From Parabacteroides sp. (GTDB taxonomy: Bacteria > Bacteroidota > Bacteroidia > Bacteroidales > Tannerellaceae): a stretch of 64,000 bases of DNA. Position numbers and translations under genes: made by a program. Positions 48,560-64,000 of this stretch are shown here, one piece after another. The notes beneath the pieces are model-generated. The model was not told the DNA's origin and ran no database searches. It was given only the letters and a program-made list of their open reading frames with translations. The stretch's first letter is position 1; each line of letters starts with the position of its first letter. The DNA lies in assembly GCA_017481945.1 (NCBI GenBank), contig JAFUOJ010000020.1:45456-109455 (forward strand). Direction: 5' to 3'.

Positions 48560-48886
48560 ATGGAAAAGAAAGAGAACGAATTAGTAGATTTTGTGGTAAC
48601 CGCCCGTAAGTATAAGACGACGCTTACTACAAAATATAAGAACCGTAAAGTATGGCAAAAGCCCTTCATCGGTGATGTGATTTCTCATCTTCCCGGAACC
48701 ATCGTGAAGTTGGAAGTACAACCCGGTCAGGAGGTGAAAGCAGGAGATCTTCTGTTGATCCATCAGGCGATGAAGATGTACAATCGTGTTGTTGCTCCTG
48801 TTAATGGAACAGTGGCAGAACTGAACGTAACGGAAGGAGAGCAGATACCGAAGGATCATTTGATGGTCAAGATTGAACCGAAGTAA
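48560..48886 (+). CDS. Biotin carboxyl carrier subunit
   Basis: 108 residues from ATG 48560 (a TTG two codons earlier is the formal start). The C-terminal biotinyl domain spans about residues 35-108: GDVISHLPGTIVKLEVQPG, DLLLIHQAMKMYNRVVAPVNG with the biotinylated Lys in AMKM, and LMVKIEP at the end. The N-terminal 34 residues probably dock to the carboxyltransferase encoded directly upstream. Followed by a strong terminator. Confidence 0.9.
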   Translation: MEKKENELVDFVVTARKYKTTLTTKYKNRKVWQKPFIGDVISHLPGTIVKLEVQPGQEVKAGDLLLIHQAMKMYNRVVAPVNGTVAELNVTEGEQIPKDHLMVKIEPK

Positions 48887-48911
48887 TAAAATTGTTCTTC
48901 TGATAATAAAG

Positions 48912-48953
48912 AAAAGCTTTCATTGGGATGTTAAACCCGATGAAAGCTTTTTG
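48912..48953 (+). terminator. Terminator after the biotin carrier gene
   Basis: AAAAGCTTTCATTGGG (48912-48927) pairs with CCCGATGAAAGCTTTT (48936-48951), then TGTGTTTT. The formal upstream start of the recombinase frame (48873) runs across this hairpin and is rejected. Confidence 0.85.
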
Positions 48954-49019
48954 TGTTTTAAGTTATTGTATATACTTGTATTTTGTTATTGTTCAACATA
49001 CATAAAAGACAACACGTAT

Positions 49020-49985
49020 ATGAAACGAGAACACAAAAGGAGAGAGACTCCCTTATCTCTTTGGGAGTACACCCAGCAGCGAGTCCGACTCAAGCAGCAG
49101 TTAGGGAAGGCCGGTACGGCAGAACTCTATCAAGTAACCGTCTGCCATTTCCTGAAATTTGTCGGGAACCCCCATTTCCCAATTCGGGAACTAAGCCGGA
49201 CATTGGTGACCGACTTTGTGACCTATCTGCAAAACAAGGGATTGGCGACCAATAGTATTAATACCTATCTGAGTAATTTGCGAGCTATCTACAACGCCGC
49301 TTACCAAGAGGAACTCCTGCACTACGCTCCCTATCCCTTTAAGCAGCTGAAGTTGCGTCGGGAGGTGACCGCGAAACGGGCAGTCCCTGTTGCAGACATT
49401 CAGAAGATGGCAACCCTCAAGTTGAGGAATAGCAAAGAGGAGCTGTCGCTCGATCTCTGCCTCTTCAGCTTTTTAGCCTGCGGAATGCCCTTTGTAGATA
49501 TGGCCTATCTGACTACCCGGAACATCCATAACAATGAATTGGTCTACCATCGGCACAAGACTGGTACACAGATTCGGTTGGAAATAACGACCGGCATGTG
49601 GCAACTCATTCGTAAGTATGCACCGACCGATGGGAAGCGTACCTACCTGTTTCCCATCCTGCCTGTGGAAAAGCCGACCTACCGGCAGTACAAAGCCTGT
49701 TTGGCTTCACATAATCGACGGCTGAAAGAGATCGGCAGTAAGTTACAGCTCTCTCAAAAGTTTACCTCCTATGTCCTGCGGCACAGTTGGGCATCTACCG
49801 CTTTACAGTGTAACGTTCCTGTGGCCGTAATCAGTCAGGCATTAGGGCATACCTCTGAAAAGACAACTCGTTGTTATTTGAGTGAACTGGACATCTCTGA
49901 ATTGGCGCAGGCTAACCGGAAGGTATCAGGCGTAATTAACTGTTTATTAGTCAAAAAGTGGAAGAGTAATAAACCTTATTTATGA
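49020..49985 (+). CDS. Tyrosine recombinase, probable DNA invertase
   Basis: 321 residues from ATG 49020. N-terminal SAM-like core-binding domain (LVTDFVTYLQNKGLATNSINTYLSNLRAI) and C-terminal catalytic domain: Lys180 in YHRHKTGTQ, Arg254-His255 in YVLRHSWAS, His277 in LGHTSEKTT and nucleophile Tyr286 in TRCYL. At the first catalytic Arg the protein has Cys154 (ACGMPFVDMAYL; codon TGC at 49479-49481, one transition from CGC). The stop codon lies inside the first copy of the CTTATTT-ATG-AAATAAG repeat. Close to the Bacteroidales Tsr-type invertases that flip adjacent promoters. The segment downstream is the obvious target. Cys154 raises doubt about activity. Confidence 0.85.
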   Translation: MKREHKRRETPLSLWEYTQQRVRLKQQLGKAGTAELYQVTVCHFLKFVGNPHFPIRELSRTLVTDFVTYLQNKGLATNSINTYLSNLRAIYNAAYQEELLHYAPYPFKQLKLRREVTAKRAVPVADIQKMATLKLRNSKEELSLDLCLFSFLACGMPFVDMAYLTTRNIHNNELVYHRHKTGTQIRLEITTGMWQLIRKYAPTDGKRTYLFPILPVEKPTYRQYKACLASHNRRLKEIGSKLQLSQKFTSYVLRHSWASTALQCNVPVAVISQALGHTSEKTTRCYLSELDISELAQANRKVSGVINCLLVKKWKSNKPYL

Positions 49986-49991
49986 AATAAG
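49975..49991 (+). repeat. Extra copy of the invertase core repeat at the recombinase stop
   Basis: CTTATTTATGAAATAAG, identical to the 17-bp core of the two 24-bp inverted repeats and a direct repeat of the copy at 49998-50014, 23 bp apart. It contains the recombinase TGA. Recombination using this copy would invert a slightly larger segment and leave the stop codon intact. Confidence 0.75.
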
Positions 49992-49996
49992 AAAAC

Positions 49997-50443
49997 ACTT
50001 ATTTATGAAATAAGGGAACTATGCTTATAATACGTTTGTTTTGATAGAGTTAACTATAAGAAACATAGTATATATAAAGAAAACATATCCTTATCCACCT
50101 GCAAAGAAAGTATAAAAATATTTAGGAATCAACTTTTTTTGTAATAAAATGAAGATGTTATCTAAAAAAGAGGACATCTCCCAGATAGGTTATTGTTTAA
50201 TTTTAAGAGTTTAGCATATTTATTCTTTAAATCTCTTGTTTTTAAACACACTTCGTCAACGTTTGTTCTCTCTTTAACATTCTATTGTAATTTATTGAGT
50301 TATTTTCTTCTTCTCCGTCCGAATGATAAAAAGTTTCCATACGTCCTATCAGGGATTTTTATGAGTAGATTTAAGTTAAATCTCCCTGATTTGCTTTTGT
50401 AGTTCTTTCAGAAATAGGCAGTTCCCTTATTTCATAAATAAGT
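49997..50443. repeat. Invertible segment bounded by perfect 24-bp inverted repeats
   Basis: The left repeat (49997-50020) is the exact reverse complement of the right repeat (50420-50443), with 399 bp between. Each repeat contains the quasi-palindrome CTTATTT-ATG-AAATAAG, a typical tyrosine-recombinase crossover core. The segment is AT-rich and holds no convincing gene. A -7-like TACGTTTG lies at 50031-50038 reading right, near the left repeat; after inversion it would read toward the recombinase. The recombinase gene ends at the left repeat and the HTH-repeat gene starts 25 bp after the right repeat. This is the layout of an ON/OFF promoter switch. Confidence 0.8.
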
Positions 50444-50467
50444 TTTACTCCCAAACATAACAATGAA

Positions 50468-51748
50468 ATGGGTAATAGGAGAGCTGAAAAACAAAAAAGA
50501 ACTACTGTACTAACTTCTAAATATGAGGAAGCTATTACTCTGTATGCGACTACGGATATGTCCAGCAAGCAAATTGCGGAACAGTGTCAGGTCAGTCTCT
50601 CCGCTTTTCGTATCTATTTGAGACGTCATTATCGTGATTTGGTATTGAAGCGTAATGGTCTCTCCCTTGACGGTATCGAACCCGAATCTGTGAAACTAAG
50701 AGAAAAAAGAGGGCAAACGAAGGCTGCTCATAAGAAGTATAAAGATGCCATTTTGGCCTGTGATGATGTCAACTATATCCAATATAATGTCTCTCAAATT
50801 GCTCATCTGTTCCATTTAGACGGTACAGCCTTAGGCAATCAGCTAAAACTCCACTATCCGGAAATTATCGAACGGCGTGAGAAACTTCGGAAACGTATGG
50901 GAATCCAAGACAACATCTCCCGCGGAGTACGCCAGGATTGTAAGGAAATCTATGCCCAAGCCATCGAACTGTTTCGCACGACACCCAAAAACCTGTTGCA
51001 GGTAGCTGAAGAGTGCAATGTCTCGGTAGGTGGGTTGAGCCAGCACCTTCGTTTTTACCATAAAGATATATGGAGGCAAAAGATTGGTGAACGGGAACAA
51101 GCGATAGGGCATCGCCGAAAAGGGGAGATGAATGGCTGTAGCCGGATTTGTGAACCGAAGCTTGAGACAAAAGAAAAATACAAAGAGGCTTTAGAGCTTT
51201 ATAGAAATACCTATTTGACTGTTTCTGAAATTCTCGATCGGACTGGAGTTTCTCCGGGTGGCTTCCGAAACTACCTCCGCCGTTGGAACCGAGACTTGAT
51301 GTTGGAACGCCGAGGGGGAACTCCGGCACAGCATGAGGATGGTTGTGGAACGGACTTGAGTCAGCAGAAACGCTTCCTCAAATCTACCGCCGGGAAATAT
51401 GCTGCTGCGATTGAAGATCTGAAAGTTAATCTCCGTCCGGTAACTCAAGTGGCGGCTCAGTTTGGGATTGATCCGGATATCTTTCGGTGTTACCTCTACA
51501 CCCATGAACCGGAAATTACGGCAAAGTTGGGACGTAAGAAGGCGGTAAACGGGCGGACAGTCTCTTGTCAGAGTGAAGCTAAATATGCAGAAGCAGTTCA
51601 TCTCTTCGAGACAACTACGGAGTCTTTGAAGAGTATTGCGCAACGCTTGGGTTTGGTCTACAACAGTTTGGGCGGATATGTCCGGCGAAGTACTCCGGAA
51701 TCGATACTGAAACACAAAGCGCTGTTAAAAGCAAAAGATATGAAATAA
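50468..51748 (+). CDS. Six-repeat helix-turn-helix protein, fimbrial regulator candidate
   Basis: A 426-residue basic protein built of six similar units of about 50 residues at 16-64, 88-138, 159-205, 235-283, 308-357 and 370-417. Each starts KYxxAIxLY, continues with a recogniser-like HTH (MSSKQIAEQCQVSLSAFRIY; TVSEILDRTGVSPGGFRNYL; SLKSIAQRLGLVYNSLGGYV) and ends LRRhxrDlxL. Linkers of 20-30 residues are charged. No catalytic or sensor domain. Such a string of HTHs suggests binding to an extended DNA site. It begins 25 bp after the invertible segment and 31 bp before the outer-membrane protein genes of the fimbrial cluster, so it is both a likely switched gene and a likely regulator of that cluster. 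Confidence 0.7.
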   Translation: MGNRRAEKQKRTTVLTSKYEEAITLYATTDMSSKQIAEQCQVSLSAFRIYLRRHYRDLVLKRNGLSLDGIEPESVKLREKRGQTKAAHKKYKDAILACDDVNYIQYNVSQIAHLFHLDGTALGNQLKLHYPEIIERREKLRKRMGIQDNISRGVRQDCKEIYAQAIELFRTTPKNLLQVAEECNVSVGGLSQHLRFYHKDIWRQKIGEREQAIGHRRKGEMNGCSRICEPKLETKEKYKEALELYRNTYLTVSEILDRTGVSPGGFRNYLRRWNRDLMLERRGGTPAQHEDGCGTDLSQQKRFLKSTAGKYAAAIEDLKVNLRPVTQVAAQFGIDPDIFRCYLYTHEPEITAKLGRKKAVNGRTVSCQSEAKYAEAVHLFETTTESLKSIAQRLGLVYNSLGGYVRRSTPESILKHKALLKAKDMK

Positions 51749-51779
51749 CAAAGAACAATAACTAACGAACTTAAAACAA

Positions 51780-52379
51780 ATGAGTATGATGAGAAAACTG
51801 ATTTTCATGATGTTCCTGTTTGTGGTTCCCCTGTCGTTCTATGGGCAGGAGAAACTGACCGAGTACAAGGGTTCGGTAGTCGGAATTAAGACGAACCTTC
51901 CGTACTGGGCAACGGTGACGTTTAATTTGGGGGCAGAATTCCGCTTGGCACGTCACTGGAGTTTGGATATCGAAGCCGGTCTGAATCCTTTCGATGGAAA
52001 GAATGACGACGGAAGCTACGATAAGGCATTGAAACACCTACGCCTTCATCCGGAATTGCGCTACTGGTTCTGTGAAACGTTTAACCGTCATTTTGTGGGG
52101 TTACACGTTCCTTACCTATTATATAATGTAGCGAACATTAAATGGTTGGGTACGGAAGATGAACGCCATGAAGGCTGGGGGACCGGTGTTGGTGTTAGCT
52201 ACGGATACTCTTGGTTGCTCTCAAAGCATTGGAACATCGAGGCCACTGTCGGGGTGGGTTATCTCTATTTAGAGTCTGACAAATACCCTTGTGCCAACTG
52301 CGGAAGAAAGCAGGAGACCATTAAGAAACACTACTTTGGCCCGACACAGGCAGCTATCAATCTGATTTATCAATTCTAA
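51780..52379 (+). CDS. DUF3575 outer-membrane protein
   Basis: A 199-residue exported barrel-like protein, signal peptide MSMMRKLIFMMFLFVVPLSFYGQ (either ATG at 51780 or 51786/51789 may start). The family signature is VVGIKTNLPYWATVTFNLGAE, WSLDIEAGLNPF, and LHPELRYWFCETFNRHFVGL. DUF3575 genes are routine members of Mfa/Fim-type fimbrial clusters in Bacteroidales, with unknown biochemical role, perhaps outer-membrane assembly. Followed directly by the DUF3868 gene. Confidence 0.85.
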   Translation: MSMMRKLIFMMFLFVVPLSFYGQEKLTEYKGSVVGIKTNLPYWATVTFNLGAEFRLARHWSLDIEAGLNPFDGKNDDGSYDKALKHLRLHPELRYWFCETFNRHFVGLHVPYLLYNVANIKWLGTEDERHEGWGTGVGVSYGYSWLLSKHWNIEATVGVGYLYLESDKYPCANCGRKQETIKKHYFGPTQAAINLIYQF

Positions 52380-52397
52380 ATGCTGGAGGAAACGAAG

Positions 52398-53849
52398 ATG
52401 AACTATACATTTACGAAACCTTTTGCACTTGCCTTCGCGCTACTTTGCGGAGGGATGGTGCAGGCCCAGACTTTGCAGGACGGACAGATCCTTGTCAAAG
52501 AAAAGTTAGTCGAACGTGCCGGAGATGAACTGGTGATCAATATGACCATCGACATCAGCCAGATTCAAGTACCTGCTAATCGTAGCGTTATCTGCACTCC
52601 GTTGATTGAACGAGGCGACAGCCTTTGTCCGCTACCGGCATTGGTAGTCAATGGACGTGAACGACACATTCAGTATGAACGTTCCGGACGCAACCCGGAG
52701 GAGAATAACGAGTTTGAAATACGTCGATATAATAAGAAAGAACAACAATTCAGCTACCATACCGCTATTCCTTACAGCTCTTGGATGGCGCGTTCCGAGG
52801 TCTCTTTGGTTACAGACCTTTGTGGTTGTGGTTGGGAAACTTTGCAGAACGACAAGTCCAACCTCTTTGCCATCAACTTGGTAAAGCCGGAACCGCTGAG
52901 ACCGGCATTGGCGTTTATCACTCCACCGGAAGAGTCCATCAAAGCTCGCACCAAAGAGGGGAGTGCTTTCTTAGACTTCCCGGTGAACAAGATTGTGATC
53001 TATCCGGAATATCGTAACAATACGTTGGAGTTAGCTAAGATTCGTGAAACCATCGAATCGGTTCGCAACGATGAATATGCCACCATTACGGAGGTGTATA
53101 TCAAAGGGTATGCCTCTCCCGAAGGTAGCTATAAGAACAACAGCTACTTAGCGGAAAATCGTGCGAAGGCATTGAGTAACTACGTGAAGGGACTCTACAA
53201 CTTTGCAGACGCTCGCTTCACCGTAGATTTTGAGCCGGAAGATTGGGCTGGATTGGAAAAACGGGTTTCGACCTCTGCTTTGGAGGATAAGGAGGAACTG
53301 TTGGCCATTATCCGTGCGGATGAACCAACTGACCTCGACCGAAAAGAGGCGAAGTTGAAGACGGTAAACGGCGGAGTGCCCTACCGTACTTTGCTGAATG
53401 AAATCTATCCTGCTTTGCGTCACTCTGATTATGCGGTGAAATACACCATCCGCAACTTTACGGTAGAGGAGGCAAAGCAGTTGATCTATACCGATCCGAA
53501 ACAGTTGAGCCTGAGCGAAATGTTCCAAGTCGCCCAGACGATGGATCCGGGTAGTGACGCATTCCGCGAAGTGTTTGAAATAGCCGTTCGTATGTATCCG
53601 GAGGATCCGGTGTCCAACCTCAATGCAGCGATGAATGCCATCTCGGTCAAACGTATCGATGCCGCTCGTCGCTACTTGACGAAAGTACCTGCCTGTCCGG
53701 AACGGGAGTTGGCAGAGGCTGACATCCTGATGTTGGAAGGCAAAACAGACGAAGCGAAAGCGAAGTTGGAAGCTTTGAAAGGAAATGCACAGGTGGCAAC
53801 ACAGGTGGAAGAGAATTTGAGACAATTGGCAACTTTGGTTGAGAATTGA
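52398..53849 (+). CDS. DUF3868/OmpA-like periplasmic protein of the fimbrial cluster
   Basis: 483 residues from ATG 52398 (signal MNYTFTKPFALAFALLCGGM...VQAQ; an ATG at 52380 is possible). N-terminal DUF3868-type beta domain to about 150. Residues of about 190-330 form an OmpA-like fold (VYIKGYASPEGSYKNNSYLA, ENRAKALSNYVKGL). The C-terminal part is a TPR-like helical region (EDPVSNLNAAMNAISVKRI, EADILMLEGKTDEAKAKLEAL). Likely binds peptidoglycan in the periplasm. Paired with the DUF3575 gene, as usual in such loci. Confidence 0.85.
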   Translation: MNYTFTKPFALAFALLCGGMVQAQTLQDGQILVKEKLVERAGDELVINMTIDISQIQVPANRSVICTPLIERGDSLCPLPALVVNGRERHIQYERSGRNPEENNEFEIRRYNKKEQQFSYHTAIPYSSWMARSEVSLVTDLCGCGWETLQNDKSNLFAINLVKPEPLRPALAFITPPEESIKARTKEGSAFLDFPVNKIVIYPEYRNNTLELAKIRETIESVRNDEYATITEVYIKGYASPEGSYKNNSYLAENRAKALSNYVKGLYNFADARFTVDFEPEDWAGLEKRVSTSALEDKEELLAIIRADEPTDLDRKEAKLKTVNGGVPYRTLLNEIYPALRHSDYAVKYTIRNFTVEEAKQLIYTDPKQLSLSEMFQVAQTMDPGSDAFREVFEIAVRMYPEDPVSNLNAAMNAISVKRIDAARRYLTKVPACPERELAEADILMLEGKTDEAKAKLEALKGNAQVATQVEENLRQLATLVEN

Positions 53850-54049
53850 TAAAAAAGAATAAAAAGAGAAGGTTTAAGTAGTACAGGGTCTATACAACGG
53901 GAAACGGGTTTGTTCCGGCTTACTGACAAAAAAACTAATAAAATCAACATAGTTAATGAAGTAAACTAAGAACAACTTGAAAAGCGAAAAAGAGCAAATA
54001 CGATATTTTTTTAATTATTATTTTGTTTTACAATTTAAATTTTAAAATT

Positions 54050-54514
54050 ATGTCTGTGAGATATAAGCTGGTTTCCCGTCAGGATTTTTCCAAGGGAGCC
54101 GAAAAGGGCAGTACTAAATTTTATGCACAAGCATTGTCAAACGGCAATGCCACTACGAATGAAATCTGTGAAAGTGTTTCAGAAGAAAGTGCATTAAGCA
54201 GTGGTGATGTGAAAAGCTTTTTAGACCGTATTGTTCGGAAGTTAGTCACTCATTTGCGTGAAGGTCGTAATGTCCAATTGGGAGAGTTAGGAAGTTTTCG
54301 TCTGGTCATTGCCAGTACAGGATCGGATTCTGAAAAAGGATTCAATGCTGCTACCATGATGAAAAGACCGAGGATTGTGTTTACTCCGGGTAAAATGTTG
54401 CAGGATATGCGTGACAGTGTTACGTACACCCGTGTAAAATTGAACTCAACGGAGGAGGATACAGCTTCAGGAGAGACGGATACAGACGAAGATGAAATGC
54501 CTGACGAATTGTAA
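54050..54514 (+). CDS. HU-like DNA-binding protein
   Basis: 154 residues from ATG 54050 (the formal start at 54023 is TTG). Residues of about 1-130 follow the Bacteroidetes HU-related fold: RYKLVSRQDFSKGAEKGSTKFY, SVSEESALSSGDVKSFLDRI, and the beta-arm with VQLGELGSFRLVI. The C-terminal tail is acidic (EEDTASGETDTDEDEMPDEL), unlike classical HU. Placed between the outer-membrane proteins and the fimbrillin; it may bend DNA at the switch or control the fimbrial promoter. Confidence 0.8.
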   Translation: MSVRYKLVSRQDFSKGAEKGSTKFYAQALSNGNATTNEICESVSEESALSSGDVKSFLDRIVRKLVTHLREGRNVQLGELGSFRLVIASTGSDSEKGFNAATMMKRPRIVFTPGKMLQDMRDSVTYTRVKLNSTEEDTASGETDTDEDEMPDEL

Positions 54515-54713: not shown

Positions 54714-56771
54714 ATGAAAAAGAACAGGCTTTACACAATGATGGCTGCGGCTGTGTTACTAACCGCAAGCTGTTCTGACGACCTTGAAAAAGGAGGTAAT
54801 GGTGTGGATATACCGAGTACGAATGGAGACCGCGTCTATATGACGGTGAATATCTCGACTGCTTCTACCGGCTCTTCAACAAAAGCGAATGGAGAGGAAG
54901 GAGATGGTTATTTGGAAGAATTAACTGGTTCAAAAGAAGCTCATGTAGATGATTTGAATATTTTCTTAGTAGAATATACAAGTACAGATGTTACAGCTTA
55001 TGGTACAGACTATTTGAAGGCAACTAACGCTACTGCTTTTCAACAGAAGGAGATTGCAGGGTATGGATTTAAGAGTGGAATAAATCAAACTGCCAATGGG
55101 GGTACAGAGCCTAATCATGATAAGGTAACAGTGGCATTGTTAGAATCTGTTACTCCTACTGAAAAGCAGTATTTGGTGTATGCAATTGTGAATCATGGTT
55201 CAGCTATTACTACAATACCAGATGCTGACAATGACGGCAAAACAACTTTAGCTGATTTACTTGCTTATGATTATAATTCAGCGGTAGTTTCTGGTTCCGG
55301 AGCTATTGCAGATACAAATTATAGCAAATTTATCATGTCTACCCATAAAATGACAGGTCAGTCAGGTAGCTCTATCGTTTCAATATCTGAAGATAATAAG
55401 GATGAATCAAATCCTGCGGTAACAACGATTTATGTAGAACGTTTGGCTGCTCGTATTGACTTGAATGTAGCTGCTGGTTTACTAAACGATGATGGTTATA
55501 CTCCTACATCAACAACTGCAACTAATCAAGGATCTTTCAAATTGACTCGCTTTATCCCGATCAATCTTTATACAGGTTCAAGTTATATGTTTAAACAGGT
55601 AAGTCCGGTTGTTGACAGTTGGGATCAAGCTTTACCTGCTGCAAATACAGATTATGGAACTACTGATCCATATAAATATTTAGGAGATGAGGTGTGGAGT
55701 CCAACTTCAACTGTAGCTAATAAGACTGGTCAGTATAATTATGTATTGGATCCGAAAATAACTGATAAAGTAATAACTGATGGTACTCCTGCTATTACGA
55801 CTTATACAAATCAGTTCGTTTCTTCTTTTTCTCCAACTACAAATGCTTGGTATGCTGCATCTGTTCTATCAAGCAATACTTATACTGATGGTAGTACTAC
55901 TTTCACTCCGATTGTGTATACAAAAGAAAATACATTGGATCTTGAAAATCAGGTAAATGGTTATACAACAGGTATGATCTTTGAAGTTCAGTTTACACCG
56001 GGTGAAAACTTGACAGTTAGCCAATATAATGTTACTGATGATAAAGTAGATGTCGTAGATTATAGTTCTGATGACTATACTGGTAATGGTACATTCTTAA
56101 CTGCAGGTCATTTGACAAGTGATGGTTCTATCCAGAAAGTTCTTTATGCTGATGTTCAGACAATAGGTGCTTTGGCTTTTGATGGTTTAGGTACTGATAA
56201 AATGACAACACAAGTGTATAACGGTTTCATGGAGGGTTGGACTGATAATGTTACTTTTGATGATCTTGCTTCTTTGAAAACTATTGTTAATGGAATGAAG
56301 GAATCTAATTCTGTGGAATTAAAGTTTAAAGAGTATTTACAGGGTGTTCTTGCCACAGAAAATGCGACGTTTGCAACTATAAAAAGCAACTTAACTTGGT
56401 CTGCTTTTATAGAAAGTGAGAGTGGAAGCAGTCTATCATTGACAGGTGATGTAACCGATACATACATTGGTAGTTTATATGAAGATTGGGGTATTTCTTA
56501 TTACAAAGAAGGTAAGAGCTATTATAAATATTGGATCCGTCACGATACAAATGAGAATGTTAATGTGATGTCTGCTATGGAATTTGTGATTGTTCGTAAT
56601 AACGTTTATCAGTTGGTTGTAACTGGCGTTAGAGATTTGGGTGATCCACTTCCATACACTCCTGGTAAAGATTCTCCTGATAATCCAGATGAAAGTGAAG
56701 AGGTATTTATTGATGTTTATCTCTATGTAAAAAACTGGGTAAAACGTACGAACTCAGGCATCATTCTATAA
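54714..56771 (+). CDS. Mfa1-type major fimbrial subunit lipoprotein
   Basis: A 685-residue protein with lipoprotein signal MKKNRLYTMMAAAVLLTASC (Cys20). The mature part is Thr/Ser/Asp-rich beta structure, with hallmarks of the Mfa1/FimA superfamily: VYMTVNISTA, a helix-free N-domain (HVDDLNIFLVEY, KQYLVYAIVNHG), VERLAARIDLNVAAG, and a C-terminal strand DVYLYVKNWVKRT used for donor-strand polymerisation. Fimbrillins of this class are secreted as lipoproteins and trimmed by a protease at the surface before assembly. It is unusually long for an FimA (about 400) but similar to Mfa1 (about 560-680). First and probably most highly expressed structural gene of the cluster. Confidence 0.85.
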   Translation: MKKNRLYTMMAAAVLLTASCSDDLEKGGNGVDIPSTNGDRVYMTVNISTASTGSSTKANGEEGDGYLEELTGSKEAHVDDLNIFLVEYTSTDVTAYGTDYLKATNATAFQQKEIAGYGFKSGINQTANGGTEPNHDKVTVALLESVTPTEKQYLVYAIVNHGSAITTIPDADNDGKTTLADLLAYDYNSAVVSGSGAIADTNYSKFIMSTHKMTGQSGSSIVSISEDNKDESNPAVTTIYVERLAARIDLNVAAGLLNDDGYTPTSTTATNQGSFKLTRFIPINLYTGSSYMFKQVSPVVDSWDQALPAANTDYGTTDPYKYLGDEVWSPTSTVANKTGQYNYVLDPKITDKVITDGTPAITTYTNQFVSSFSPTTNAWYAASVLSSNTYTDGSTTFTPIVYTKENTLDLENQVNGYTTGMIFEVQFTPGENLTVSQYNVTDDKVDVVDYSSDDYTGNGTFLTAGHLTSDGSIQKVLYADVQTIGALAFDGLGTDKMTTQVYNGFMEGWTDNVTFDDLASLKTIVNGMKESNSVELKFKEYLQGVLATENATFATIKSNLTWSAFIESESGSSLSLTGDVTDTYIGSLYEDWGISYYKEGKSYYKYWIRHDTNENVNVMSAMEFVIVRNNVYQLVVTGVRDLGDPLPYTPGKDSPDNPDESEEVFIDVYLYVKNWVKRTNSGIIL

Positions 56772-56869: not shown

Positions 56870-57973
56870 ATGAATCGTATATATCGTATATGTAAACAGT
56901 TCTTTGCTGTTGCCTCTCTGGTTGGATTGGCTTCCTGCGACTGGATACACGATGACTCGCTACCCCTTTGCGAGTATCGCCTGCATTTTAAATATGACTA
57001 CAACATGAAGTTTGCCGACGCTTTCCAGCATGAAGTAGATCAGGTGACGCTTTTTTTCTGTGACCAAGACGGAAACTTCTTGTATCAGCGGCAAATCCAA
57101 CAGTCGGAAATGGAGAATGGATCTATCTCCTTAGACCTTGAACCGGCTACTTACCAGTTGGTGACATGGGCAGGACTGAAAGCCTCCAGTTATGAACTAC
57201 CGCAACTGACTGCTGGCATATCAACCGTCGAAGATGTTAAGGTGCGTACTTTGCGCGAAGCGGATACTACACAACCCAATGAGTTAGACGCTTTATGGCA
57301 CAGTTTGGATACTCTTGTTGTGACCCGTGAGAAACCGGAAGATAAAATGATCAGTTTGGCAAAGAATACGAATAAGTTACGTGTTGTCTTGCAAAACGTG
57401 ACAGGCGAAGACATGGACGTGAATAACTTTACGTTCCAGATTGTGGCCGATAATGGCTATATGGATTATGACAACAGTTTGTTAGCCGATCCTACCATAA
57501 ATTACCTCCCGTATTATACGGAGAACGTAAACATTGCTGCCGACACTACGGCAGGAGCAACGGTCAGTTCTCAGTTTGTTGCTGTTGCTGAAATGAATAC
57601 CATGCGTCTGATGAATGGCAAGAACTATCGCTTGATTATTCGTCATGAAGGATGGGAAAAGGATGTATTGAATGTGAATTTGAACAACTATCTCCTTCTG
57701 ACCAAAATGGAAGGGCATAAAATATCAGCACAGGAGTATTTAGACCGTCAGGATGAATATTCGATTGTGTTTTTCTTGACCCCGGTTATCTGTCCAGATT
57801 GTCCCGATGTTCCGGACGAACCTGATGACCCGGTAAATCCTGATGAACCCGATGTCCCGGACGATCCAACCCCGGATGAACCGGAACCTGAAGACCCACA
57901 GATTGTAGGCTACGCTTGCTATAAGGTACAAGTGAAGGACTGGGTGATTCGTATCAATGAAGGTGAATTATAA
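56870..57973 (+). CDS. FimB/Mfa2-type fimbrial anchor lipoprotein
   Basis: A 367-residue lipoprotein (signal up to VGLASC, Cys24) of the FimB/Mfa2 family: LPLCEYRLHFKYDYNMKFAD, VDQVTLFFCDQDGNFLYQRQ, ATYQLVTWAGLK, KMISLAKNTNKLRVVLQN. A Pro/Asp/Glu-rich linker (CPDVPDEPDDPVNPDEPDV) precedes the last 25 residues, which form a C-terminal strand (CYKVQVKDWVIRIN). The family caps and anchors the fimbria to the outer membrane. It follows the major subunit gene, as in mfa1-mfa2. Confidence 0.85.
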   Translation: MNRIYRICKQFFAVASLVGLASCDWIHDDSLPLCEYRLHFKYDYNMKFADAFQHEVDQVTLFFCDQDGNFLYQRQIQQSEMENGSISLDLEPATYQLVTWAGLKASSYELPQLTAGISTVEDVKVRTLREADTTQPNELDALWHSLDTLVVTREKPEDKMISLAKNTNKLRVVLQNVTGEDMDVNNFTFQIVADNGYMDYDNSLLADPTINYLPYYTENVNIAADTTAGATVSSQFVAVAEMNTMRLMNGKNYRLIIRHEGWEKDVLNVNLNNYLLLTKMEGHKISAQEYLDRQDEYSIVFFLTPVICPDCPDVPDEPDDPVNPDEPDVPDDPTPDEPEPEDPQIVGYACYKVQVKDWVIRINEGEL

Positions 57974-58011: not shown

Positions 58012-59586
58012 ATGATTCGATTCTATAATTCAATTAATCAAGTAGCAGCAGTGACCGCTGGGTTACTGCTCTGGTTGCTATTACCGGCTTGTAGCGACAA
58101 TAGCAGTGCCCCCGATCTGCCGGACGATTCCAAACTTTGTACGGTTACCATCTCTTTGCAAACTTCAAACAGTATGCATCCGGTAACGAAAGCAGAGGAT
58201 ACACCGAACTGGGTAGAGGAGGAGGCAGACTATGAACGTAATATTTCAAAGTGGTTAGTCGTCGCGTATGATGCCAATGGCGACTTAGCCGGTTACATGG
58301 CTGCCGGAAGTGGTGATACAGGGTTAGGAACGGATGACGATTCTAAAACGGCTGTTTCCCAAATGGAACTTCCTGTAGGTACGTATATATTCTATGCATT
58401 TGCGAATTTGGAGAGTTTGGAAAATGGTGGAGATTTGAAGAGTCGTATCATGACTGGTACATATAAAGCTGCGGATTTTGTGAATGGAGGAACTAACCAT
58501 GCGGTTCAGGTTGGAAATATTAATGAGAAGTTTAATGTAGCAACGGGTAAAAAGTTGATACCAATGAGTAGTTATGCTTATCCGATTACATTGTCTTCCA
58601 ATACGACATTGACGATACCATTGATCCGTATGATTGGAAAGGTACGGGTGACAATCTCAAATGAGTTGAACAATCAACCGGTGGAGATCTCAAATATGTT
58701 TATTGGGATGTTTCAAGAGAAAAGACCGATTTATCTGATTCCTTATATGTATGAGAATAAGAATTTCTTGGAATTTGATCCTACGATAGATGTGAGTAGG
58801 GCTCCCTCTTTCCCTGATCAGCAAACGACAGTAGCTGCTAATTTATCCTATTCTTTGATCACTGCAGATGAAACAAAGACAATAGCAGTAGGGAAGGAGA
58901 GTGCTCAAACGTTTACTACTTATGTAAATGAGTCTATGTTGACTTCGAGTACGAGTACTTCCGGAATGGCGATTACTTTGACGAGAGGTTCAGCGGGTGA
59001 GACTTATAAAACAACGACAAGCCATACAACTGACTTCGATTTTGTCCGCAGAAATGACCTGTTAGACATACCTATTTATATTACAGATATTGAGACTAAG
59101 TTAGAGTTTGTTTCACAACGTATACCAATCGGGGTATTCCCAAAGACGATTACTTTTGGAGGAAATGGTACGGGTATTCATGTTATAACACCCACCAGTT
59201 ATGTACATTCGGATGGGGGTGATTTGGCGATTCAATATACATTGACAAGCTCATCTTTGTCTTCTCCTGATACAAAATGGCAGATTCGGTATAAAAAAGA
59301 GGGTAGCTCATACGAGGCAGGAACTACCTATACTACTCTTGAGCTTATAGACAATGAGAACCAGTTACTGATTGATACAAATAATAACCAAGTGCTTTCA
59401 ACAGGTGAAATGACTATTGGGACTCAAGGAACTTTAAACGGCTCTTTCACCATTCGTACTCAGGAGTTGGCTAAGCGGTCCAGTGCTACGCTGAAGCTAA
59501 CCATAGTGGTGGAAGACAGTGAGAATACAAGTCGAGAAATACTGCTTCCCTATACAATTTATATCTGGAATCAGGCAAGCATTTAA
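58012..59586 (+). CDS. Fimbrillin-like lipoprotein, probable minor/tip component
   Basis: A 524-residue lipoprotein (signal ending LLLPAC, Cys27). Beta-rich mature part with Mfa-like traits: YERNISKWLVVAYDANGDL, LPVGTYIFYAFANLES, ITLSSNTTLTIPLIRMIGKV, and an Ig-like C-terminal half (FPKTITFGGNGTGIHV; ATLKLTIVVEDSEN). It ends IYIWNQASI, without the charged donor strand of the other subunits. Probably a fimbria-associated tip or accessory subunit encoded between the anchor and the very large surface protein. Confidence 0.7.
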   Translation: MIRFYNSINQVAAVTAGLLLWLLLPACSDNSSAPDLPDDSKLCTVTISLQTSNSMHPVTKAEDTPNWVEEEADYERNISKWLVVAYDANGDLAGYMAAGSGDTGLGTDDDSKTAVSQMELPVGTYIFYAFANLESLENGGDLKSRIMTGTYKAADFVNGGTNHAVQVGNINEKFNVATGKKLIPMSSYAYPITLSSNTTLTIPLIRMIGKVRVTISNELNNQPVEISNMFIGMFQEKRPIYLIPYMYENKNFLEFDPTIDVSRAPSFPDQQTTVAANLSYSLITADETKTIAVGKESAQTFTTYVNESMLTSSTSTSGMAITLTRGSAGETYKTTTSHTTDFDFVRRNDLLDIPIYITDIETKLEFVSQRIPIGVFPKTITFGGNGTGIHVITPTSYVHSDGGDLAIQYTLTSSSLSSPDTKWQIRYKKEGSSYEAGTTYTTLELIDNENQLLIDTNNNQVLSTGEMTIGTQGTLNGSFTIRTQELAKRSSATLKLTIVVEDSENTSREILLPYTIYIWNQASI

Positions 59587-59604: not shown

Positions 59605-62600
59605 ATGAAAACAGGATATATACTACATAAAACATTGGTACTAATCACTGCGCTATTGATTAGTGGTGGTGGAAGTGTCTGGGGACAACAAACTCCTCCT
59701 GATAAACTAAGTGAAGATGAATTATTGCAATTATTAAGAAATCATAGTGGCACTGATACTAAAGATTTTCTTAATAAGGTGGATAATGGTGATGTAATAT
59801 TTAGTTCACTGAGAGATGAGGATATAAGAGAAGAACCTTCTAGGTGGGTTTATGATGTTATATGGACTATTTCTGAAGATGAAAAGGAAATAACTTGGCC
59901 TACCCCTGTTTCTTCTTCAAATTCTAAAGATTACGATATCTCAATTACTAATCCTGTTATTTTAGGAAATACAGTAAGGGATATTTATACAACAAAAAAT
60001 GATACTAAAACAATTGTATTACAAAAAGAGGCTGGTGCGAATTTAGATGGATTCATTCGTTGGTATGTAACGACAGATCCTAATTCTTCTGCCGCAGTAA
60101 AGGAGACGATAGGTTTATCAAACTATAGTGGAAATAGTGTTTGGAAATTTAAAAATGGAATAGCCTGGTTAAGACCTACCAATGCCTCCTACAGAATATT
60201 TAAAGCTTGTGTAGTCTGTAATAAAGGTACATCAAATTGGGCTTTAGATAATACTTGGACGCGTTATGCAGATGCGGTAGATGCAATTCCTTCACATGGA
60301 ATTTCCTCGATAAAGTATACAGTGCCAACTAATGCAAGTGTTGGTTCTACCTATTATGTGGTTTGTGAGGCAAGTGCCAGCAATGAGGTTTCTTCTGACG
60401 TTACGAATAATACGGTAACAATTCCAAGAGTAGCAGTAAAGTACGTTTATCAAATCCATGTTATAGACGAGGCAAGAACAAACACAGAATTGTCTTTAGA
60501 AGAAAATAAATTACCAATTGATAATTTAGAAACATTTAAAGCAAATTTCTTGGAACATTATGAGATACATACACCGATAGAAACAGGTACTAATTATCGT
60601 TTGGCAGAACCGTTGGCAAACTATTATATTCCGAATGGAAATGGAGGTATTACTTCACCTACTTATGTACGTTGGAGAGCTTATGATAGTAATGGAGAGC
60701 GTGTTAATGGTAAATATGGTAATACCTATACTTCGGAAATATGTGAATCGGGAAAGAATATTGTGAAATATACTTTCCCTTATGAAGCGAAAGATACGGA
60801 ACAGCAATTAACCTATTATCTAACGGCTGAAGTGGGAACTTCTGAAAATGGAACTTTTTATCCGGTCTCTTTTCTAACGGTGTATTTGGAACCGTTCTCT
60901 ATGCCATTGACGGAGGAACAATTAAGTACGGTTAAAGATGGTGAAAGCTCGATTAATTATCAGTATCGCTTTGAAGATTACTTGACACAACATCATTTTG
61001 AAACAATAGATGTGATTAATTTTGATTTTGAGAAAGGTGGCGGAATTATATCCGGCTCATCAGTTACTTCGACCAACAACTATTCGACTCAATTAGTCGA
61101 TAATTTCAACTCTTATTATGCTTTTGCTGACTTAACGGATATTCCTTATCGAAGGGATAAACGTCTTTCAGTAGGACGAGGGGAGTTTGCGTTATATCGT
61201 ACTTTAAATTATCCGGGTATTTCAAAGCAGGGTGTTTATGTTAATGGTGGAATCTATAATGATTATTTTGCTGATTTTTATAATAATCGAATGGTAGACC
61301 GTTTATGGGAAAAGACAAAAGGTGATCAGTCTGGTTATTTTATGTATTTGGATGCAACAGACGAGGCGGGAGTAATAACTAAAGTAGATATTTCTCAATT
61401 ATGTCCGAATACCACATTATTGGTTACAGCTTGGATTTGTGATATGGCACATTCTACAGATGCAGAACATGCAGATGTTGGGTTTACGTTAAAGAAGAAA
61501 GGAAGTAATAATACAGAGGAAATTTTGTATAAGTTTTATTCCGGTATGGTCGAAAATAGTCCAGCGATAGGTAATAGTGGAGGTCAGGCAAATTGGCAGC
61601 AGATTTATTTCCGTTTTTCCATTCCGGGAGGAAGTACAGAGGATGAATATATCTTAGAAATCGCAAATAACACACCGAGCTCCAATGGTGCGGATTATGG
61701 TATAGATGATATAAGGATTTACAAATCAACACCGGATATCTCTGTTGAACGTCAAGACGCTTGCCACGCTTCAACATTGAATGTAAGTTCGGACTATGAG
61801 ACGTTGTTGCGTAATATGGGATGGAGTGAGAATCCGGATGTAGCGAATGGAACAGAAAAGGGGGGTGAAGCTAAATGGCGGTATGGTTTCGGTAATAATT
61901 CCTATATAGGAAATGTTCTATTTGGTTGTGTGGATAATTTTGGTGTGACTGATGATTGGGTTAAATTTAATGAAGCGAATGCTACTCAAATGCGTGTGGT
62001 TGTTCCAACGAATCTTTTATCGATGACAGATGTGGAGTTAGCAGCTTTCCCAAGTACACAAGATGAAGCTTTGACAGAGGAGATTCAGATGAATATTTTA
62101 GCGGTTAAAAATTATATTGACGCTGGTAATAGTGCTACTATAGGAGATATAAATCTTCAAACGTTGGCGAATCTTTATACTACTTCGGGAGTATCTGAAG
62201 ATGATATTACGGCTATTAAGACTGTAGGAAGTGAGAAAAATCTATTGTATGAAAGCAGTTTGAATGCAATGTATGGTCAGTTGAATATTCCTCGTATCTG
62301 TCATTCTTGGTATGAGTCAACTACCAAGACCCTCTATATGGCTGTCCTGAATGTAGAGGATACAGATTTGAAATATCAGGGAGAGGCTGTTGATGGTGGT
62401 TTTGCCGATGGAGAATATGAAGTTGTCCTATGGGCTGCCGGAGATACTCCACAACTGAATGATGCCTGTCTTTTGCACTCTCCATTTAAGGTGAAACCGT
62501 CTATCACGATCACAATTGAAACGGATGCAGCTGCCGAAGAAACAGTTTGTGCAGGGGAGATTCGTACATTTAAAGCTTATTTGTGGGCCTATGATAGTGA

Positions 62601-64000
62601 CGGAAATAAAAAAGAGTTTAGTGAGATTTATAAGACTGGTTTTACATTTGATTGGTTCTTAGGTAACTGGGATGAATATGAGGCGATTGTTACAAAGGAT
62701 ACATATTCTGATGGGAAAACATTGCAGGCTTTGATTAAGGCGTATCGTAAGTCAATGGGAACAACTTCTGAACCTTATTTGGAGGTTTTAAATGTGGAGG
62801 ATATTCAGAATAGTTCTTTTTATGAAGCTCATCAAGAAGATGCTAAATTGTTAATCAGTTTATTAGGTGATAAGACGACCGAACCGAAAGTGATTTCAGG
62901 GTCAACAGCTACCTTACGTTGGGTGACCTATTTGATCGCAATGCCTTATATACCGAATAGTACAGATGAATTAGGACAAACGTATGAGTTCTGTACAGAA
63001 ACACAAGGACTACAATTGTCTGGAGATTTAGATGTACCTAATCTGTCGGTTGGTTTCCCAAATGTAGATTATAATGTGGTAACATTGAATACGGTTCCTT
63101 TACGTTTGGGATTACGTCATATTTTGAATGGTATTGAATTGCCGAATGTCCCTATCCAAAATGCCGTTACGTATGGAAGTGAGGAAACAGCGTATTTGGG
63201 TGTTGTTGCGTCTGATAATAAAGTCTTCTTGCGACAAAACGGTAGTGTGTACACTCCGGTAGGAGAAGTGACGAAACTTTATGCAAAGACTAATAATAGT
63301 GATAGTTCTAAACCGAATGAACTGAGTATACAGTTTATGAAGGGATTAAGCGACGAAGAGAAAGCTAAGATTCCGGATTTGTTAAAGGAAGGGGAAATTT
63401 ACTCGTTGTATGTACCATTTGGTGAATACGATGACAGTGATAACTATATAGAAGGTTCTTGTATCGGTTATGCCGTCTTACAGATCAAGATTGTCCCTGA
63501 GTTCTTGACATGGCAGAAAGGCAGTGGAGACGTTTGGTATAACGATTCCAACTGGGAGCAATCAACGAAAGGAGAATTATATGTAGGTGGTAACTCTACG
63601 TCTACAGAGGATGCCAACGGTTCAGATAACGTAGCAAATGCTTTCGCTCCGTTGTACTTTACGAAGATTACTATTCCGGGAAGTCAGACGTTGGAGTTGG
63701 AGAATCCAGAAAAGAAAGAGGATGGACTTACTTTGAATATATCTACTGATTCAAACATCCAGTATGAGATGGCAGTCGATACAAACACAGTACAGAAAGG
63801 CTATAAGATCTCTCCATACTATATTAATAAGGTAAGTGAGATTTACTTTAAGCCGAATGCTCAGTTGAGACACCAGCAGTATTTGATATATAATACCGCC
63901 CGTGTGGACTTTGAAATGGCGAAAGACGCGAAGTATTGGATGGCTTCACCTTTACAGGATGTCTTTGCCGGTGATATGTATGCACCGAAAGGAACAGCCC
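59605..64000 (+). CDS. Very large exported surface protein of the fimbrial cluster, 3'-truncated by the window
   Basis: An ATG at 59605, 18 bp after the previous stop, opens a frame that runs to the window end (over 1,460 residues). Signal peptide MKTGYILHKTLVLITALLI..GGGSVWGQ. The mature protein is a string of Ig/PKD-like beta modules (YTVPTNASVGSTYYVVCEAS; VKYTFPYEAKDTEQQLTYYL; LEIANNTPSSNGADYGIDDI; DGEYEVVLWAAGDTPQ), with a later motif TWQKGSGDVWYNDSNWEQ often seen in giant Bacteroidetes surface proteins. Likely an adhesin displayed with or on the fimbria. Whether it ends in a type IX secretion sorting domain cannot be seen. Confidence 0.75.
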   Translation, partial: MKTGYILHKTLVLITALLISGGGSVWGQQTPPDKLSEDELLQLLRNHSGTDTKDFLNKVDNGDVIFSSLRDEDIREEPSRWVYDVIWTISEDEKEITWPTPVSSSNSKDYDISITNPVILGNTVRDIYTTKNDTKTIVLQKEAGANLDGFIRWYVTTDPNSSAAVKETIGLSNYSGNSVWKFKNGIAWLRPTNASYRIFKACVVCNKGTSNWALDNTWTRYADAVDAIPSHGISSIKYTVPTNASVGSTYYVVCEASASNEVSSDVTNNTVTIPRVAVKYVYQIHVIDEARTNTELSLEENKLPIDNLETFKANFLEHYEIHTPIETGTNYRLAEPLANYYIPNGNGGITSPTYVRWRAYDSNGERVNGKYGNTYTSEICESGKNIVKYTFPYEAKDTEQQLTYYLTAEVGTSENGTFYPVSFLTVYLEPFSMPLTEEQLSTVKDGESSINYQYRFEDYLTQHHFETIDVINFDFEKGGGIISGSSVTSTNNYSTQLVDNFNSYYAFADLTDIPYRRDKRLSVGRGEFALYRTLNYPGISKQGVYVNGGIYNDYFADFYNNRMVDRLWEKTKGDQSGYFMYLDATDEAGVITKVDISQLCPNTTLLVTAWICDMAHSTDAEHADVGFTLKKKGSNNTEEILYKFYSGMVENSPAIGNSGGQANWQQIYFRFSIPGGSTEDEYILEIANNTPSSNGADYGIDDIRIYKSTPDISVERQDACHASTLNVSSDYETLLRNMGWSENPDVANGTEKGGEAKWRYGFGNNSYIGNVLFGCVDNFGVTDDWVKFNEANATQMRVVVPTNLLSMTDVELAAFPSTQDEALTEEIQMNILAVKNYIDAGNSATIGDINLQTLANLYTTSGVSEDDITAIKTVGSEKNLLYESSLNAMYGQLNIPRICHSWYESTTKTLYMAVLNVEDTDLKYQGEAVDGGFADGEYEVVLWAAGDTPQLNDACLLHSPFKVKPSITITIETDAAAEETVCAGEIRTFKAYLWAYDSDGNKKEFSEIYKTGFTFDWFLGNWDEYEAIVTKDTYSDGKTLQALIKAYRKSMGTTSEPYLEVLNVEDIQNSSFYEAHQEDAKLLISLLGDKTTEPKVISGSTATLRWVTYLIAMPYIPNSTDELGQTYEFCTETQGLQLSGDLDVPNLSVGFPNVDYNVVTLNTVPLRLGLRHILNGIELPNVPIQNAVTYGSEETAYLGVVASDNKVFLRQNGSVYTPVGEVTKLYAKTNNSDSSKPNELSIQFMKGLSDEEKAKIPDLLKEGEIYSLYVPFGEYDDSDNYIEGSCIGYAVLQIKIVPEFLTWQKGSGDVWYNDSNWEQSTKGELYVGGNSTSTEDANGSDNVANAFAPLYFTKITIPGSQTLELENPEKKEDGLTLNISTDSNIQYEMAVDTNTVQKGYKISPYYINKVSEIYFKPNAQLRHQQYLIYNTARVDFEMAKDAKYWMASPLQDVFAGDMYAPKGTA

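Follow-up and report, generated by a model that had tools for sequence, protein, structure and literature searches.

The stretch analysed here, called the window, is 64,000 nucleotides (nt) long and comes from a Parabacteroides genome (G000:C12:45456-109455), whose assembly amounts to 2.79 Mb in 45 contigs and is 83% complete. One locus in it has the form of a putative promoter switch. A tyrosine recombinase gene is followed by a short gene-free segment between two inverted repeats. Beyond the segment lie the gene of a regulator with six helix-turn-helix (HTH) units and a set of pilus genes. The features are listed in Table 1.

Table 1. Features of the locus, with positions in the window
Feature	Position	Strand	Basis or remark
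Tyrosine recombinase, 321 amino acids (aa), likely invertase	49020..49985	+	Pfam Phage_int_SAM_5 and Phage_integrase
Extra crossover core A	49975..49991	+	exact 17-nt copy in direct orientation; overlaps the recombinase stop codon TGA
Left inverted repeat	49997..50020	+	core B at 49998-50014
Putative invertible segment, gene-free	50021..50419	no strand	segment of sister locus C11 in opposite orientation
Promoter-like block TTG-N20-TTTCTTTG	50102..50142	-	within a 41-nt stretch, the longest that the C11 segment has in identical form; TTTCTTTG at 50109-50102
Right inverted repeat	50420..50443	-	core C at 50426-50442
Regulator of 426 aa with six HTH units, first gene of the predicted switched operon	50468..51748	+	Pfam HTH matches
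DUF3575 outer-membrane protein of pilus loci	51780..52379	+	Pfam PF12099, E 4.8e-69
DUF3868 protein	52380..53849	+	Pfam PF12984, E 1.4e-12; weak OmpA match below cut-off
HU-like DNA-binding protein (HU-HIG)	54050..54514	+	Pfam PF18291, E 3e-28
Mfa1-family major pilin	54714..56771	+	NCBIfam NF038041, 156.8 bits, cut-off 130; Fimbrillin_C
Mfa2 anchor pilin	56870..57973	+	Pfam PF08842, E 9.1e-73
Possible further pilin or lipoprotein	58012..59586	+	no family match; homologue at the same place in C11
Very large protein	59605..64000	+	frame open to the window end, cut by the contig end; homologue in C11

An earlier reading of the same DNA, the original prediction, had described perfect 24-bp inverted repeats around 399 gene-free base pairs (bp), and this was borne out. 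The arms are exact reverse complements of 24 nt each, with 399 nt enclosed. At arm distances of 60-1000 the window has no longer perfect inverted repeat; when its 64 kb were shuffled by dinucleotides 100 times, the longest arm was 16. The repeat core had been called two-fold symmetric, and the 17-nt core CTTATTTATGAAATAAG is indeed symmetric save for its central ATG. Other parts of the layout needed correction. The recombinase gene, said to abut the left repeat, is adjacent to it but ends 11 nt before the 24-nt arm. The regulator, said to start 25 bp past the right repeat, adjoins it with 24 nt between. Two crossover sites had been assumed; both arms are real, but there are three cores, the third being the direct copy that overlaps the end of the recombinase gene.

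The sister locus

The 17-nt core has six exact copies in the assembly, three in the window and three, arranged alike, on contig C11; no further exact copy was found in the assembly beyond these two places. The C11 recombinase is 82% and the C11 regulator 76% identical to that of the window. The gene order DUF3575, DUF3868, Mfa1, Mfa2 is the same, and no counterpart of the window's HU gene was found at C11. The two segments align with 67.6% identity over 411 columns when one is inverted, and with 36.4% over 451 columns as they stand. In a BLAST comparison, the flanks match in the same sense as far as the repeats, and the enclosed part matches on the opposite strand. Because the segment aligns inverted between collinear flanks, the two switch copies in this one assembly are oppositely oriented.

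The likeness of the two loci raises the question of which enzyme acts where. The C11 recombinase, or both enzymes, might flip the window segment in trans, which would make the two loci one coupled system. The identical cores, which have no other exact copy in the assembly, and the similarity of the two recombinases speak for this. Against it, each locus owns an adjacent recombinase, and most genus loci examined have one enzyme per switch, although those loci were chosen by recombinase. Such coupling is a serious but rather doubtful possibility.

Other relatives of the recombinase in this genome (on C14/C33, C40 and C42) adjoin no pair of sites of the kind described below. C14 and C33 have zero site matches. 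C40 and C42 each have a lone match, roughly 89 kb away at C40 and roughly 3.4 kb away at C42. C14 (L018) and C33 (L019) have 6 kb in common at 100% identity, reversed; in this stretch lies a third relative of the recombinase, which has an internal stop. The genome's third type V pilus locus, on C3 (G000:C3:165802-175000, L181), has no recombinase, six-HTH regulator or site of the CTTAT-N7-ATAAG type alongside.

Paired sites and inverted segments

A relative of the recombinase at E 1e-60 occurs in 19 of 38 genomes of the genus. The exact 17-nt core occurs in 12 of the 38, and a reversed control in none. The loci compared were the best 36 of 56 listed places in other genomes, four regions picked by core, the window and C11, 42 in all. 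A recombinase at E 1e-20 is found in 39 of these; of the remaining three, L155 matches partially. Sites of the form CTTAT-N7-ATAAG, whose N7 centre varies between loci, flank a segment on both sides in 34 of the 39 loci. Three have the left site only, at a contig end, and two have none.

The 7-nt centres follow a simple rule. In a search made by the arms only, the left and right centres are reverse complements of each other at every one of the 34 loci. The left sites show 12 forms of the centre, or nine ignoring strand. When the right-hand centres were dealt out randomly in 10,000 trials, the mean was 8.1 matches and the maximum 18. Among loci without the commonest centre, 19 of 19 match, compared with 2.6 on average and at most 9 under random dealing. 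The 34 loci are not independent events, since they are related and one of them (L153) was chosen by core. Read at the level of sequence, this matching within loci is the pattern that strand exchange by a tyrosine recombinase requires. In L150 and L151 the centre of the left site is reversed relative to the usual one (TTCATAA and TTTATAA), yet the segments of these loci are oriented as in their relatives.

Outside the genus the sites differ. Among 46 recombinase-relative loci, at least two sites of the CTTAT-N7-ATAAG type were found at five, all of them in Parabacteroides. Some recombinase relatives in other genera have another palindrome downstream, of the TCTCT...AGAGA type. Inverted repeats of this second type follow the relatives L030, L034, L039, L043 and L047 in other Bacteroidales, and their centres differ too.

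Comparison of the 34 segments gave 28 similar pairs at E 1e-4. The main match runs inverted in four of them (window/C11, L125/L126, L076/L133 and L084/L138, the latter three oriented by their recombinase genes) and the same way in 24. Both orientations therefore occur between homologous loci. L125 and L126 have flanks of 92-95% identity that run collinear to the repeats, with the inside inverted. Collinear flanks with breaks at the repeats were seen in three inverted pairs, namely window/C11, L125/L126 and L084/L138; for L076/L133 no flank comparison was obtained. Several draft contigs end in or near the switch (for example G013:C53, G001:C79 and G032:C84). Such ends fit a mixed population and prove nothing.

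These comparisons bear on a reading in which the repeats are binding sites of the regulator, or hairpins, and not crossover sites. Palindromic cores do adjoin a DNA-binding gene. Many loci, however, have the sites although their first gene is not the regulator. The inverted homology breaks at the repeats in three pairs, and the centres match within loci and differ between them. The binding-site explanation is highly improbable.

A second core in direct orientation lies beside one end of the segment in 9 of the 37 loci with sites, including the window and C11, and L125 has one at both ends. An example for a possible shift of such tandem sites is found in genome G001, where L091 and L140 are 96% identical in DNA over the recombinase. 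They share an identical 50-nt unit of core, spacer and core; L091 has it at the left end, and L140 has it reversed at the right end. An inversion through the outer core followed by one through the inner core would produce this shift. Likewise, exchange between the window cores at 49975 and 50426 would shift core B to the right side. The Parabacteroides faecis locus L023 has a single left core, and its 94%-identical relative L132 has two.

Direction of the putative promoter, and the recombinase

Bacteroides promoters carry the motif TTTG/TAnnTTTG. The original prediction had placed a promoter in the segment and had noted a -7-like TACGTTTG at 50031. That sequence is present but is probably not the promoter, with no TTG or TTTG in the 35 nt upstream where a -33 element would lie, and no conservation of the motif in the sister segment at C11. 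The predicted promoter itself keeps a better candidate in the conserved 41-nt block on the minus strand. This block points toward the recombinase in the window and toward the regulator at C11, so the assembled window is probably OFF and C11 probably ON.

Of the 34 segments, 9 contain the strict motif TTG-N19..23-TAnnTTTG, eight of them toward the recombinase and one downstream. In shuffled segments it pointed toward the recombinase 0.9 times on average (maximum 5) and downstream 1.0 times. When one mismatch was allowed in the -7 part, 23 of 34 segments matched toward the recombinase (200 shuffles, mean 11.0, maximum 19) and 10 of 34 downstream (shuffle mean 11.9). L125 and L126 have the strict motif once in each direction, as expected for an inverted pair. 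Judged by this motif, the assembled orientation among the loci examined is more often the one with its putative promoter towards the recombinase. A sigma-70 scan of 48880-54100 gave 8 sites compared with 7.8 in shuffles, and the segment holds two of them (50041-50069, plus strand, and 50352-50323, minus strand).

A different function is conceivable for a segment that inverts. It might carry no promoter for the operon; inversion would then move a terminator, or an antisense promoter with an effect on the recombinase. The conserved block faces the 3' end of the recombinase gene in the assembled orientation, and eight of the nine strict matches point the same way. There is also an imperfect stem, TCAGGGA/TCCCTGA, at 50349-50389 before a T-rich run, noticed by eye, which could be a rightward terminator in the assembled orientation. 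A scan of 48880-54100 for terminators with loops of up to 8 nt, however, gave 7 compared with 4.5 in shuffles and none in the segment. Furthermore, at 33 of 33 loci with DNA past the right site, a sizeable frame, sought on the plus strand, starts within 420 nt and reads away from the switch. It is unlikely that the segment serves in this way.

The recombinase belongs to the tyrosine type, as the original prediction had implied. All four Pfam matches are tyrosine recombinase domains, and the serine resolvase domain of Mpi-type serine invertases is absent. Its six NCBIfam matches are all Xer or integrase models and lie far below cut-off. The core-binding domain covers residues 14-108 of 321, and no arm-binding domain precedes it. 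In an alignment of 38 proteins, which contains the window's and omits one truncated protein, R178, K180, Y251, R254, H277 and Y286 are invariant in all 38. R178 may be a substitute for the first catalytic arginine, which is missing from its usual place as it is in IntCTnDOT integrases. In a published classification, the first catalytic arginine of the CTnDOT integrase is displaced and another arginine is reported to take over (PMC8138268). The same source describes an IntDes subgroup with a shifted arginine and a tyrosine replacing the first histidine.

Very probably the locus is a promoter inverton with a type V pilus operon under its control, but several observations weigh against this. The promoter block of the window is one mismatch off TAnnTTTG. 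With one mismatch allowed the window matches in both directions, so that this search alone does not pick the window promoter. Six of the eight strict matches pointing to the recombinase come from one related group, and downstream-pointing matches are no more frequent than in shuffles. The differences in orientation lie between loci or species and not inside one strain. Among the homologous pairs, 24 of 28 are oriented the same way, 20 of these 24 within one group of seven loci (L135, L141, L143, L144, L147, L150 and L151). Finally, the first catalytic arginine is absent and replaced in the motif G-M-P-F-V-D; its absence is common to all 38 aligned proteins.

The last two points would also suit a dead switch, which inverted in ancestors and is now locked one way in the window because the recombinase has become inactive in this species. 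The gap at the arginine, however, is shared by the proteins of loci whose segments occur in both orientations. R178 and K180 are invariant, and in the CTnDOT integrase another arginine is reported as a substitute (PMC8138268). The recombinase frame of the window is intact and its repeats are perfect. A dead switch is improbable.

Under the promoter inverton reading, the adjacent recombinase, or its sister from C11, would exchange strands between the palindromic sites and so invert about 0.4 kb. In the ON orientation, the promoter of the segment would read through the right site into the six-HTH gene and then into the genes for DUF3575, DUF3868, HU, Mfa1 and Mfa2. In the OFF orientation it would read towards the recombinase. 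The six-HTH protein would be made mainly when the switch is ON and most likely acts on its own locus. Guessed from its position, it may support a weak promoter or bias further inversion. The original prediction of phase-variable fimbriation through a promoter switch is supported as regards the switch, by the inverted homologous segments, the breaks at the repeats and the matching centres. Inversion in this strain, activity of the promoter, phase-variable fimbriation and a role of the regulator would be expected to follow from it.

The first gene, the pilus operon and known systems

The regulator and the fimbrial genes of the original prediction keep their labels, the former by Pfam HTH matches and the latter by Pfam and NCBIfam matches to Mfa1 and Mfa2. 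Judged by these families, what follows the switch is a pilus operon of type V (Mfa1/Mfa2). The last two genes in Table 1, considered as possible tip pilins, have no family match in Pfam or NCBIfam. The contigs of the window (59605-64000) and of L017 (L017:2-5416) both end within very large genes that are homologous, with parts 87% identical between the two loci; this repeat may have caused the breaks.

An AlphaFold2 model of the regulator, made from two sequences, can be read as six three-helix units, at moderate confidence (mean predicted local distance difference test, pLDDT, 61.7; predicted template modelling score, pTM, 0.25). The regulator matched no PDB sequence up to E 1. Foldseek, run with this model of moderate confidence, gave no hit at E 0.001 or better. 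Relatives of the regulator occur in 5 of 38 Parabacteroides genomes, 5 of 123 genomes of the family and 2 of 198 of the order, the window's own being one of these two. Among 395 genomes of the phylum, where few candidates were scored per genome, only the window's own was found. Pilus-type genes accompany the relatives in the window, C11, L123, L124, L170, L174 and the P. faecis locus L023, and also in L175, where the relative is broken. Those of L171, L172 and L173 lie among genes that by eye are polysaccharide-export and glycosyltransferase-like. No site of the CTTAT-N7-ATAAG type was found in these three fetched stretches with a narrower pattern; that of L171 starts 209 nt upstream of the gene.

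The first sizeable plus-strand frame past the right site was compared in 33 loci. It is the regulator in four, an HU-type gene by Pfam in six, DUF3575 in ten and another gene in 13, by eye OmpA-like, glycosyltransferase-like or lipoprotein-like. An HU-type gene takes the place of the six-HTH gene in L129, L130, L131, L132, L136 and L138, which suggests that a DNA-binding first gene belongs to the design. Compared with each other, L023 and L132 are 94% identical over recombinase and switch up to 12 nt past the right core. From there L023 continues with the regulator and L132 with an HU gene.

These first genes, together with the tandem sites, invite a wider model of a multi-site system. Either recombinase would act on both loci, and tandem sites would move a spacer cassette from end to end. 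Exchange at the right site would swap the first gene (six-HTH, HU or none), and the protein from this slot would feed back on recombination, favouring a state with one pilus locus ON and the other OFF. Taken as a whole, this model has a small chance of being right.

Several known systems resemble the locus. In Escherichia coli, the promoter segment fimS is flipped by the tyrosine recombinases FimB and FimE, which turns fimbriae ON or OFF. The fim system has two recombinases of different bias and short repeats. The window locus is alike in its putative promoter segment of a few hundred bp, and differs in that the fimbriae are unrelated. CTnDOT has a 7-nt overlap, which the 7-nt centre of the window site resembles. 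Unlike IntCTnDOT, the window recombinase has no arm-binding domain and stands beside an inverton, not in an integrating element. The fimS segment measures 314 bp (PMC5903667).

There is also a likeness to promoter invertons of Bacteroidales with tyrosine-type DNA invertases (for example cluster 3b, inverton group 126; PMC11892184). Like the window locus with its putative promoter, these have a promoter motif in an invertible segment, flanking inverted repeats, surface-product genes nearby and a neighbouring tyrosine invertase that the segment promoter does not drive. The window locus differs in its palindromic N7-centred site, its third, tandem core and its six-HTH first downstream gene, and its recombinase is below the cut-off of every NCBIfam model matched. 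Mfa1/Mfa2-type pilus genes are shared with the type V pili and the surface loci under phase variation in gut Bacteroidales (PMC12632263) and with the P. distasonis fim and mfa clusters (PMC9409006). The review of gut Bacteroidales mentions a phase-variable locus later linked to type V pili (PMC12632263), and in the main text of the P. distasonis paper the word "invertible" is absent (PMC9409006). The consulted parts of both sources contain no mention of a six-HTH regulator. Titles and abstract openings in the open-licence literature gave nothing on this site type, moving tandem sites or the six-HTH family. The kind of switch is thus known already, and it is the spare crossover site and the six-HTH first target gene that set the window locus apart.

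For Parabacteroides, the comparison defines a type of switch with a site code, in which conserved arms serve the enzyme and the 7-nt centre varies. This centre should decide which sites pair, and so predicts which loci of a genome can recombine. The comparison also brings to light an invertase subfamily that lacks the first catalytic arginine in its usual form, and a narrow family of five- and six-HTH proteins linked to surface-structure loci. A named strain, P. faecis JCM 18682, has the same layout of recombinase, sites, regulator and pilus operon, which makes the predictions testable.

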